A stretch of 64,000 nt of DNA from Melioribacteraceae bacterium (GTDB lineage: Bacteria; Bacteroidota; Ignavibacteria; Ignavibacteriales; Melioribacteraceae). A program made the position numbers and the translations under genes. Under the pieces are notes generated by a model that saw only the letters and a program-made list of their open reading frames with translations, searched no databases and was not told the DNA's origin. Shown piece by piece: positions 24,897 to 29,010 of the stretch (positions within the stretch are counted from its first letter, which is position 1; the number at the start of each line of letters is the position of its first letter). Location: NCBI GenBank assembly GCA_030584085.1, contig CP129490.1, positions 3,195,511-3,259,510 of the forward strand. Direction: 5' to 3'.

Positions 24897-27800
24897 ATGA
24901 AAAATGCTTTTGAAAATTATCTCAATTCAATTTCAAAAAAGTTCAAGCATCCCGAAACAAGCGAAATGGGTTATCGCACAGATTTTGAAATTCTACTAAA
25001 AGATATTTTTGAAAAAGTTGTAACCCGCCCGCGAATTGATCACGATGCAAAAGCAAAAGATGGCAACAAACCGGATTTCGCAATTCTTAAACATGATATT
25101 TCAATTCTATACATCGAAACAAAAGATATAGGCGTTGATCTCAATAAAATTGAAAAGTCCGAACAGATGGCGCGGTATTTCGGTTATACGAATTTAGTGC
25201 TTACCGATTATGTTGAGTTTCGTTTTTACAGAAACGGTCAGCGTTATGACGAACCTATCAAAATTGCCGAATATGATTTAAAGAATAGAACAATCAATCC
25301 TTTCCCCGATTCATTTGAACACGCTGCAAAAACATTAATCGATTTTACACAATCACAAAAAGAACCGATTAAGAACGGACTTCATCTTGCAAAAATTATG
25401 GGCGGTAAAGCTCAGCGTATCCGCGATAATCTTCTTCAATTTCTTTCTGTTGATTCGGAAAAGAATAATGAAATAAAAAAGATTTATAAAACTCTTCAGA
25501 AACTTCTTGTTCACGATCTTAAAGCTGAAACGTTCGCAGATATGTATGCGCAGACTTTAGTTTACGGACTTTTTGTTGCAAGGTATCACGATAAATCACC
25601 CGAAAATTTTTCACGAAGAGAAGCTCGTGAACTTGTCCCGACTTCAAACCCGTTTCTTCGTCATTTCTTCGATCATATTGTCGGTCCCGATTTTGACAAA
25701 CGTCTCGAATACATTGTCGATGAACTTTGCGAAGTTTTTTCTCACGCAAATGTACCCGAGTTAATGAAGCAGTATTTCCGCGATGATTTGTGGGGAAAGA
25801 CAAATGAAGGTCCCGATCCGGTTATTCATTTTTATGAAGATTTTTTGAGAGAGTACGATGCCGGTCTTCGTAAAAAACTCGGCGCTTATTACACACCGCA
25901 GCCGGTTGTTAGATTTATTGTCCGTGCAGTTGATCATCTTCTGCAGAAAGAATTCGGACTACCGAACGGTTTGGCGGATACGACAAAAACTCAAAACGAT
26001 ATTCACAAAGTTCAAATACTTGATCCCGCGGTAGGAACCGGAACATTTTTAAGCGCGGTTATAAGAAGTATTTATTTGCGTTTGAAAGATAACGGACAAC
26101 TCGGAAGATGGACAACTTATGTTCATCACGATCTGCTTCCACGTATTCATGGTTTTGAAATTATGATGGCGCCTTACACTATTGCTCATCTTAAACTAAG
26201 TATGGCTTTTAAGGCAACGGGATTCAAACATTTCAACCGGCGATTGGGAATTTATCTAACTAACTCTCTCGAAGAAGCCGATGAAATCGGCGATCTTTTT
26301 ACCGGGTTCGGTTTTGCAGAAAGCATAGCCGAAGAATCCAAAGAAGCGGCGCAGATTAAAAACGATACGCCGATTATGGTTGTTATAGGAAACCCGCCTT
26401 ACAGCGTTAGTTCTTCCAATAAAGGTGATTGGATAACCAACCTGATTAAAGATTACAAAAAAGATTTGAACGAAAGAAACATTCAGCCGTTAAGCGATGA
26501 TTATATTAAGTTTATCCGTTACGCAGAACATTACATTGAAAAAAACGGAAGCGGAATTGTCGCTATGATAACGAATAATTCTTTTTTGGATGGAATTATT
26601 CATAGACAAATGCGTAAACATCTGCTTGAAACATTTGACGAAATTTACATTTTAGATTTACACGGCAACGCGAAGAAAAAAGAAACCGCACCCGACGGAA
26701 GCAAAGATGAAAATGTTTTTGATATTCAGCAAGGTGTCGCAATTTCAATAATGATCAAGAAAGTAAATAACGTAGGGGTCGATCATCATCGACCCCGAAG
26801 GAATGATAACAATAACACGGTGGACGAAAATATTCTGGGGAACGAAAATATTCGTCCCCTACGGGCAATTGTTAAATTTGCCGAACTTTACGGCAAACGC
26901 GAAATAAAATTTGAAAAACTGAATGAAAATAAAATTGATACAATAAAATGGAAAAAATTAAAAACCGCCGAACCGAATTACTTTTTTGTTGAGAAGGATT
27001 TTGAATCAATAGAAATGTATGAAAAAGGTTTTAAGATTGATGAGATTTTCTCATCAAGTACATCTGGAGTTAAAACACATAATGATGGTGAATTAGTCAG
27101 TCATCGAGAATTTGCTGAGAATAATTATAAATATTTATATCGACCATTTGATGTGAGAAACATTGAATACGATTTGAAGAAAGTTGTTCGACATCGATTT
27201 AACGTAATGAAGAATATGCTACAAAATAATATCTCTCTACTGACATGCAGACAACAAAGTAGTTTTGATTTCCAGCACGTTCTAATCACCAAAGTACTAA
27301 GTGATATTTGTTCCGTTTCTTTACAAACAAAAGAGTCAACCTACGCATTCCCTCTCTACCTCTACACAGAAGACGGCGAAAAAGTACCGAACCTAAATCA
27401 AGAAATAGTTAACGAGTTAGAAAAGACAACCGGTAAAACAGAGCCGAAAGAAATATTAGACTACATTTATGCGGTACTGCACTCACCAAGTTACCGCGAA
27501 AAGTACAAAGAATTTTTAAAGATAGATTTCCCGCGTGTGCCGTATCCAAAAGATAAAACCACATTTAATAAGCTGGTAAAACTCGGGACGAAATTACGTG
27601 AAATACATTTATTAGAATCACCCGTTGTAAATAAATTTATAACCACATTCCCCAACGACGGTTCATACGAAGTCGGTAAAATAAAATATGTTGTGGATGC
27701 AAATCTTGCATCCCCAAAAAACAAAAATGTAGGGGTCGATGATGATCGACCCCAGACAAATAATTCCCACAACATAATGGACACAAAATTTGCGTCCACC

Positions 27801-28022
27801 ACAGGCCATGTGTACATTAACGAAACCCAATATTTCGGCAACGTACCTGAATCCGCGTGGAATTTTTACATCGGCGGATACCAACCCGCACAAAAATGGT
27901 TAAAAGACCGCAAAGGCAGAACCCTCACCAACGAAGACATTGAACATTATCAAAAAATCATCGTCGCATTAACCGAAACCGACAGATTGATGAAAGAGAT
28001 TAACAAAATTGATTTCATTTAA
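24897..28022 (+). CDS. Single-chain restriction-modification enzyme (type ISP/IIG-like) with REP insertions
   Basis: The 1,041-residue protein joins a nuclease, a methyltransferase and a specificity region. The N-terminal PD-(D/E)xK site is P59-D60 with E74-T-K76. The AdoMet motif is DPAVGTGTF (376-384) and the catalytic motif NPPY is at 499-502. The C-terminal VYINETQYFG...IGGYQPAQKWLKDRKGR is typical of type ISP specificity domains. There is no helicase, so it is the shorter, IIG-like form. Two segments (residues about 626-656 and 933-968) are encoded by GTAG-flanked palindromes and interrupt otherwise conserved-looking stretches in frame. The ORF stays open throughout, so the enzyme may still be made. 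Confidence 0.85.
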   Translation: MKNAFENYLNSISKKFKHPETSEMGYRTDFEILLKDIFEKVVTRPRIDHDAKAKDGNKPDFAILKHDISILYIETKDIGVDLNKIEKSEQMARYFGYTNLVLTDYVEFRFYRNGQRYDEPIKIAEYDLKNRTINPFPDSFEHAAKTLIDFTQSQKEPIKNGLHLAKIMGGKAQRIRDNLLQFLSVDSEKNNEIKKIYKTLQKLLVHDLKAETFADMYAQTLVYGLFVARYHDKSPENFSRREARELVPTSNPFLRHFFDHIVGPDFDKRLEYIVDELCEVFSHANVPELMKQYFRDDLWGKTNEGPDPVIHFYEDFLREYDAGLRKKLGAYYTPQPVVRFIVRAVDHLLQKEFGLPNGLADTTKTQNDIHKVQILDPAVGTGTFLSAVIRSIYLRLKDNGQLGRWTTYVHHDLLPRIHGFEIMMAPYTIAHLKLSMAFKATGFKHFNRRLGIYLTNSLEEADEIGDLFTGFGFAESIAEESKEAAQIKNDTPIMVVIGNPPYSVSSSNKGDWITNLIKDYKKDLNERNIQPLSDDYIKFIRYAEHYIEKNGSGIVAMITNNSFLDGIIHRQMRKHLLETFDEIYILDLHGNAKKKETAPDGSKDENVFDIQQGVAISIMIKKVNNVGVDHHRPRRNDNNNTVDENILGNENIRPLRAIVKFAELYGKREIKFEKLNENKIDTIKWKKLKTAEPNYFFVEKDFESIEMYEKGFKIDEIFSSSTSGVKTHNDGELVSHREFAENNYKYLYRPFDVRNIEYDLKKVVRHRFNVMKNMLQNNISLLTCRQQSSFDFQHVLITKVLSDICSVSLQTKESTYAFPLYLYTEDGEKVPNLNQEIVNELEKTTGKTEPKEILDYIYAVLHSPSYREKYKEFLKIDFPRVPYPKDKTTFNKLVKLGTKLREIHLLESPVVNKFITTFPNDGSYEVGKIKYVVDANLASPKNKNVGVDDDRPQTNNSHNIMDTKFASTTGHVYINETQYFGNVPESAWNFYIGGYQPAQKWLKDRKGRTLTNEDIEHYQKIIVALTETDRLMKEINKIDFI
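26772..26862 (+). repeat. REP doublet inserted in frame in R-M gene
   Basis: The unit starts GTAG, followed by the hairpin GGGGTCGAT-catc-ATCGACCCC (26775-26796). A spacer follows, and then a second hairpin GGGGAACGAA-aata-TTCGTCCCC (26837-26859) ends with CTAC. The ends are inverted (GTAG...CTAC), as in paired REP elements (BIMEs). Read in the gene's frame it encodes VGVDHHRPR, an Asn-rich linker and VDENILGNENIRPL, with no stop codon. Confidence 0.85.
27693..27800 (+). repeat. Triple REP array inserted in frame in R-M gene
   Basis: Three palindromes lie in a row: GGATGCAA-atc-TTGCATCC (27695-27713), GTAG plus GGGGTCGAT-gatg-ATCGACCCC (27729-27753), and TGGACACAAA-a-TTTGCGTCCA (27778-27798, one mismatch). 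They encode VDANLASP, VGVDDDRPQ and MDTKFAST. They split the specificity region between KIKYV and VYINETQYF, and the frame continues without interruption. Confidence 0.85.
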
Positions 28023-28064
28023 CGAATTAATTTGTAATTAAAAATTTTCACAAACATTTATGTT

Positions 28065-28272
28065 GAGGACAAATATTTTCGTCCCCCAAACAAAATTTAA
28101 AATGTAGGGGTCGATCATTATCGACCCGTAACAAATAATATCATAAAGTAGTGGACGCAAATTTTGCGTCCACAAATGCAATATTAATAAAATAATGTAG
28201 GGGTCGAATATTTTCGACCCCGAAGCAATATTATTAATCATAAAGCGTAGGGTATGCAAACCTTGCATCCCC
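28065..28272 (+). repeat. REP array upstream of RAYT gene
   Basis: Five palindromes of three stem classes fill the gap between the R-M gene and the transposase: GGAC...GTCC (28065-28085), GTAGGGGTCGAT...ATCGACCC (28104-28128), GTAGTGGACGCAA-att-TTGCGTCCAC (28148-28173, perfect), GTAGGGGTCGAA...TTCGACCCC (28197-28221) and GTAGGGTATGCAA...TTGCATCCCC (28247-28272). GTAG precedes four of the five. Spacers are 20-30 bases, AT-rich, and not conserved. Confidence 0.85.
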
Positions 28273-28285
28273 AAATAATAACAAA

Positions 28286-28846: not shown

Positions 28847-29007
28847 GGGATGCAAATTTTGCATCCTCTCACAATATTTTTTAACGAACAATCGGGGTCG
28901 AAAATATTCCGAGGGTCGAAGATATTCCGGGGGTCGAAAATATTCGACCCCTACGAATCTTGAATCTATCTGATGTTATAGGTGGACGCAAGATTTGTTT
29001 CCCCTAC
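28843..29007 (+). repeat. REP array downstream of RAYT gene
   Basis: A first palindrome, GTAGGGGATGCAA-att-TTGCATCC (28843-28868), overlaps the RAYT stop. After a short gap there are three tandem half-repeats of GGGGTCGAAAATATTC type (starting near 28894, 28913 and 28931). The last completes a hairpin GGGTCGAA-aata-TTCGACCC followed by CTAC (28951-28954). A degenerate GTGGACGCAA...CCCCTAC unit (28982-29007) closes the array at the end of the next gene. Confidence 0.8.
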
Positions 29008-29010
29008 AGT

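Follow-up and report, generated by a model that had tools for sequence, protein, structure and literature searches.

REPINs consist of two inverted REPs and the spacer between them, forming one unit. But how do such palindromes come to stand inside genes? Work of Di Nocera et al. (2013, PMC3733652) already described intragenic GTAG REPs and REP dimers in unrelated genes. In the text of that paper the dimers have REPs in opposite orientation and add 20-30 amino acids, sometimes with two inserts per gene, and the authors speak of flexible linkers or loops and of possible neutrality, while also wondering about repair genes. The hosts named there are repair, replication and RNA genes; the text, its supplementary gene table aside, names no restriction enzyme and no secretion sorting domain. 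Rickettsia palindromic elements (RPE), which occur in another host, are likewise palindromes lying in-frame in unrelated proteins (PMC3733652), a likeness in description. Quentin et al. (2018, PMC6006769) placed an in-frame REP between the HuH and Y motifs of tnpA-REP subclass 2.4. As the text of this second report has it, such REPs are found in Cyanobacteria, Bacteroidetes and other phyla and are modelled as a peripheral extension, and the subclass is marked by NH[IFV]H, WQ, YIxNNP and the internal in-frame REP.

The locus described here has traits of both systems (Table 1). It lies in the window, a stretch of 64,000 nucleotides from the 3.74-Mb, single-contig genome of a Melioribacteraceae bacterium. 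A restriction-modification (RM) gene with two in-frame palindromic inserts is followed, 263 bp past its stop codon, by a REP-associated tyrosine transposase (RAYT) that has the HUH and Tyr motifs and REP arrays on both flanks. As in the cases in the text of PMC3733652, there is a GTAG tag, the dimers are opposed, the host genes are unrelated and one gene carries two inserts. The RAYT shares NHIH, WQ and the internal in-frame REP with subclass 2.4 as that report's text defines it, and differs in the Y motif, YIEQNP against YIxNNP, so that it is at most a candidate member; unlike in that text, a related unit is also present in the neighbouring enzyme. Thus the translated REPs of the RM gene and the RAYT are a further case of a phenomenon in print and hold no new principle.

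Table 1. Features of the locus, with positions in the window
Feature	Position	Strand	Remarks
Type-ISP-like restriction-modification (RM) gene, 1041 aa, open throughout	24897..28022	+	Pfam matches
Composite REP unit (REPIN-like), RM site 1	26772..26862	+	residues 626-656; no REP there in 16/16 homologues
Second in-frame palindromic insert of RM gene, site 2	27691..27799	+	three hairpins
REP array (BIME-like) between RM gene and RAYT	28058..28285	.	families D1, D2
REP-associated tyrosine transposase (RAYT / TnpA-REP), 186 aa	28286..28846	+	profile, structure match, own-genome search
Composite REP unit inside RAYT, between HUH strand and next helix	28538..28631	+	residues 85-116
REP array downstream of RAYT	28847..29010	.	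family D3; half-repeat and inverted REP at 28903-28955

Type ISP restriction enzymes are marked by a Type_ISP_C specificity domain joined to an N6 methylase, which the RM protein has, and are expected to have a helicase-like ATPase domain. The Pfam matches of the RM protein (Type_ISP_C with 234 bits, N6_Mtase, Eco57I) include no helicase model, hence the name type-ISP-like. Its methylase-motif and presumed nuclease-motif columns are kept: across 16 aligned proteins D376, G380 and NPPY at 499-502 are invariant and P59, D60, E74 and K76 nearly so. Seven named records encode relatives of the protein, four of them labelled Ignavibacteria, Ignavibacteriae or Melioribacteraceae and the remaining three Bacteroidetes, Desulfobacterales and Gracilibacteria. 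The RAYT scores 22 bits against Y1_Tnp, one below the cut-off of 23, and 49.6 bits against NF047646, below the cut-off of 80. Among the structures similar to its model, 4er8, a complex of TnpA-REP and a REP hairpin, is at rank 3 (E 9.2e-6), and the IS608/ISDra2 transposases match too; the protein is thus predicted to have the HUH Y1 fold and to stand near TnpA-REP. The model has a low-confidence linker between the strand at 75-82 and the helix at 120-137. No second RAYT of this class was found in the genome, either in a protein search with the RAYT or at the five Y1_Tnp loci, where there is no RAYT-like ORF.

The site-1 unit has exact ends, with GTAG at 26772 and CTAC finishing at 26862. It is built from a REP at 26772-26796 (GTAGGGGTCGATCATCATCGACCCC), a 41-nt spacer at 26797-26837 and an inverted REP at 26838-26862 that ends CCCCTAC, and its palindromic stem bears at the 5′ end the GTAG by which GTAG REPs are recognized. 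With its homologous spacer this is the inverted-REP and spacer structure of a REPIN, and it may have moved as one; it differs from REPINs in lying in coding DNA and in being, in its exact type, local and of few copies. Five copies of the exact pattern GTAGGGGTCGA-N3-10-TCGACCCC, a TCGA-type REP, were counted over the 3.74-Mb genome; every one belongs to this cluster, within 2.2 kb, and the reversed pattern has 0 matches. The many dispersed genome copies that also define GTAG REPs are therefore not found for the TCGA type.

How similar are the two coding units? Translation gives VGVDHHRPR-RNDNNNTVDENILGNE-NIRPL for the RM gene and VGVDHHRPR-NVNDNNTTGDKNTLRVE-DIRPI for the RAYT, both units beginning in phase GTA-GGG, which bears out the peptide, Asn-rich linker and NIRP/DIRP end reported in the preliminary description. 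The same account had a 91-base and a 94-base unit with common hairpins and spacer, differing by one codon. The homology stands, as the spacers align with a score of 17, whereas none of 2000 single-base shuffles scored above 6. The single codon is right for the length, there being one 3-nt gap, but not for the sequence: 75 of 94 aligned columns are identical and 16 substitutions separate the units. The claim that a repeated palindrome gave rise to homologous peptides in two unrelated proteins is supported. Besides the RAYT itself, the protein search of the genome returned the RM insert only (58% over RAYT residues 80-118, E 2e-6). A half-repeat ending AATATTC precedes the inverted REP both in the intergenic array (28903-28955) and in the RM unit (26811-26863), at 79%. 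In G001, a second genome of the genus, a RAYT has the same REP, spacer and inverted REP arrangement with a longer spacer, which suggests that the RAYT insert probably predates the split between the two genomes. Three nucleotides of the window RAYT spacer are missing from both the RM copy and the G001 RAYT, the rest of whose longer spacer differs; the window RAYT copy therefore need not be the source.

Was the peptide in the RM protein before the palindrome? The preliminary description had pointed to orthologues holding the peptide at a site free of REP DNA as the sign of an ancestral segment. Neither a REP nor a VGVDHHRPR-type peptide is present at site 1 in any of 16 aligned type-ISP homologues (34-71% identical by blastp). 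In 15 of them the site is a short turn (e.g. KNEKKDKP), and L037 has ten additional residues there that are unrelated to the window insert. Compared with L036, the window loop is longer by about 26 residues, against a unit of 91 nt; part of the old turn must therefore have gone as well, unless the loop varied beforehand. No target duplication was found for the RM insert. In the structure model of the RM protein, poor overall (pLDDT 65.4) and usable only locally, residues 625-654 fall under pLDDT 50 between strands 615-621 and 658-663, as do residues 938-966 of site 2 between strands 930-933 and 969-973; such low confidence is weak evidence of disorder, as it is expected wherever homologues have a gap.

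Site 2 is composed of a GTGGATGCAA-type hairpin, GTAGGGGTCGATGATGATCGACCCC (27729-27753) and a TGGACACAA-type hairpin. At this loop three of the 16 homologues have other palindromic elements, starting with GTCAT and ending with ATGAC: L012 (HAELGSASKIPKQ...), L011 (VISTEGRNLSTK...) and L035 (HSELDSES...), the last a paralogue within the same genome. These belong to a different element class at the loop that REPs use in the window. L011 and L012 have a further palindromic element in common at about residues 307-334. The idea that type-ISP genes are general REP hosts is unsupported: among the 39 ORFs longer than 400 aa, whatever their kind, that 30 loci hold, many clipped at locus ends, two have a stem of at least 9, neither of them GTAG, at a threshold that would miss stems of 8 such as that of L035.

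The RAYT loop was surveyed in 30 loci and 60 more, taken in listed order among the matches listed, together with the five Y1_Tnp loci of the genome. Ninety loci gave 93 ORFs, of which 15 were excluded for failing the motif pattern; the 78 remaining loops come from 78 loci and are all distinct in DNA, some from close relatives, so that the number of independent cases is below 78. A perfect inverted repeat with a stem of at least 9 lies between the HUH strand and the following helix in 65 of the 78, against 2/295 control windows of the same genes and 1/390 codon-shuffled loops, and 12 have no stem of 8 or more. E. coli rayT, used as a negative control, has no stem above 6 in 90-nt windows. The palindromes are diverse, with 50 distinct 18-nt cores among the 65. 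A 5′ tag is present in 46, a 3′ tag only in 15 and no tag in 4. The 46 with a 5′ tag are read in one phase in 33 cases and in another in 13; the third phase is missing, as expected because the TAG of GTAG would close the frame. L081 and L083, whose proteins are 74% identical, differ by two paired changes that preserve the palindrome and alter two residues, so that either the fold of the DNA or RNA is under some influence or the REP was replaced as a whole; as the 65 were picked for perfect stems, they carry no claim of general covariation. At least 12 nt are shared with DNA within 900 bp of the own gene in only 13 of the 65, against 29/1300 cross-comparisons. REPs inside RAYTs were dropped as a discovery, being already in print in the text of PMC6006769, and this survey confirms and enlarges the subclass 2.4 report there.

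Are translated REPs found in other proteins? A wider pattern, GTAGGGG-N8-16-CCCC, has 13 sites in the genome, six of them inside the window, and its reversed control 3 matches. Its seven sites beyond the window all belong to type IX secretion sorting domains (PF18962), where they occupy the turn after 'IKFTIPN'. This adds a further protein class with translated REPs. A second REP type (GTAGGGACAA) has 16 sites: nine in the same turn, six in no ORF of at least 110 aa and one upstream of where an ORF probably starts. Outside the window, in-gene copies of the two exact patterns are in the sorting-domain turn in 16 of 16 cases, in 15 open genes and a decayed one. No report of this site was found in the open-licence literature, supplementary tables being outside the scope, and a recurrent coding-REP site in the sorting-domain turn of this genome and its relatives may be new.

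The genome has 127 PF18962 matches. For comparison 71 sorting domains were selected, 29 from the 30 best-scoring of the 127, another 36 by manual choice, in many cases because of a long span, and 6 as matches of the REP pattern; 27 of them have insert peptides of six types (3, 18 and 6 by source), which describes a selected set and is not a rate. Four types, DEYIRP, SRDLS, THELS and DAKFA, include clear GTAG palindromes, and VKRETS and VETPNRESLQ have no long perfect stem. A stem of at least 8 is present in the turn of 18 of the 71, against 1/247 control windows; one of the 18, in L101, is a palindrome due to chance in a domain that lacks an insert. The turn is filled with other REPs in relatives, where a segment was obtained from 28 of 30 loci and a stem of at least 7 was present in 15/30, in a survey whose query contained a REP peptide. 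Sorting-domain and RAYT-loop palindromes share at least 16 nt in 7 of 19 same-genome pairs and in 18 of 1433 pairs between genomes, the seven coming from four genomes and four of them from G025. Counted by palindrome, 13 in sorting domains have a RAYT loop in the same genome, seven matching it and six not, and for several there are matches in the RAYT loops of other genomes as well. The genome of the window is among the six: its sorting-domain REP, of which one was compared, has no match to the window RAYT loop beyond a common stretch of 4 nt. In G042 a single 28-bp palindrome encodes GRDGIYPVST in the RAYT and, in a different frame, VETGYIPSLQ in the sorting domain. The earlier term 'protein-embedded mobile peptide' thus needs qualifying: the palindrome in the DNA is the conserved entity, not the peptide.

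How did different REPs come to fill one turn? On a tree of the 71 sorting domains, built with insert columns removed and with 34 of 68 inner branches open, insert presence needs 3 changes, against a mean of 21.9 and a least value of 15 in 300 shuffles. Insert type changes 15 times among the 27 (shuffles mean 15.6, 137/300 at or below 15), a figure that may arise from the poor resolution alone, given the open branches. Flank identity among 25 domains is 0.690 for same-type pairs (n=71) and 0.672 for different-type pairs (n=229; permutation p 0.0065). Within 0-15 nt downstream of the REP it is 0.66 against 0.57 (GTAG types only), and within the REP 0.85 against 0.38. The near independence of insert types from their flanks suggests a cassette-like turnover, and one old filled subfamily with exchanged REPs is proposed as the simplest reading; the flank data neither prove nor exclude short homologous tracts, as in conversion. 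At filled sites the exchange could occur by REP-directed insertion or by short recombination tracts. Type IX sorting domains are removed after export. It is conceivable, although the odds fall somewhat short of even, that REPs have fixed coding niches, the sorting-domain turn (with the RAYT loop) being an addressable cassette site of low cost to the host, since the domain is cut off after export, and that coding copies serve as long-lived reservoirs for persistence and spread.

With a probability of roughly 0.8, a REPIN-like unit related to the RAYT's own was copied into the RM gene and is tolerated as an in-frame loop, a by-product. This reading starts from the observed homology of the units, the absence from homologues, the open frame, the kept motif columns and the predicted loop. 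RAYT-class transposases would copy GTAG REPs, and most copies landing in genes would be lost; survivors, the RM insert at 26772 presumably among them, would be REPs that entered loops in an open phase and kept the frame. The RM unit would have landed in a β-hairpin turn, in the stop-free phase GTA-GGG, its net length leaving the frame intact, and it may have escaped purging because turn position, phase and length permit reading as a flexible, Asn-rich surface extension. The RAYT would be the mover, and the RM protein would be made and active with a neutral insert, whose peptide most likely serves no function and is a by-product of mobility at the DNA level. In general, REPs most probably persist as harmless peptides at any site whose loop, phase and length permit it. 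The recurrence of palindromes at the same protein position in RAYT relatives (65/78) and the placement of all 16 in-gene copies beyond the window in the sorting-domain turn support this explanation; the failure of the window RAYT loop to match the sorting-domain REPs of its own genome goes against a simple story, and the small share of RAYT-loop palindromes that resemble nearby DNA (13 of 65) also counts against it.

Is the RAYT needed at all? An exchange of copies between the REP array and the genes on its flanks could have come about through recombination or template switching between hairpins, as the confinement of all five exact TCGA-type copies to 2.2 kb, the ragged half-repeats common to copies and the slightly more alike sorting-domain flanks beside same-type REPs would let one expect. 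Palindromes of this kind are also present within loops of genes that are not linked and, across many genomes, in the RAYT loop, an objection that concerns the general process and not this locus itself, and recombination among neighbours is unlikely, if a serious competitor. Still less probable is a function of the peptide, or of the DNA or RNA hairpin, that led to its being kept for a benefit such as DNA contact or gene regulation. The near-regular palindrome of RAYT relatives, the paired changes of L081 and L083 and the uptake of different palindromes at RM site 2 in different lineages agree with a function, but the diversity of cores and of reading frames and the 12 loops lacking a stem of 8 argue against it, and none of the 16 RM homologues needs the site-1 insert. 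An ancestral protein segment, palindromic by accident, has no supporting point and is ruled out for practical purposes, as 16 of 16 RM homologues are free of it and the DNA homology reaches the spacer and the intergenic arrays. Palindromes arising by chance are ruled out by the reversed TCGA-type pattern and by the RAYT (2/295) and sorting-domain (1/247) controls.

Copying of a REPIN-like unit into the RM gene would make this a single locus that joins a palindromic element, its adjoining transposase and a neighbouring defence enzyme, and the locus illustrates how REPs can persist within coding DNA. Should the sorting-domain turn be a cassette site, the target choice of RAYTs, the persistence of REPs and the feedback from coding copies become testable by strain comparison, because empty and filled sites coexist among paralogues of one genome.

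For annotation, strings such as VGDENFRPLQ and VETGHAPSLQ are to be read as translated DNA palindromes and not as protein motifs. The sorting-domain REP sites of G000:C1 lie at 155487, 158228, 206934, 345828, 734395, 1197143, 1198099, 1387363, 1391987, 2471395, 2473029, 2895684, 2900391, 3591491 and 3613279 (loci L043-L053 and L331-L357) and encode VGDEYIRPLQ, VGTSRDLSLQ, VGTTHELSLQ and near variants. The turn peptide (D/N)VKRETS and its variants, which have no long perfect stem, are found in L117, L231, L236, L241, L245 and L266. In the decayed sorting-domain gene at G000:C1:486666 (L047, L268) the REP is still at its usual position.
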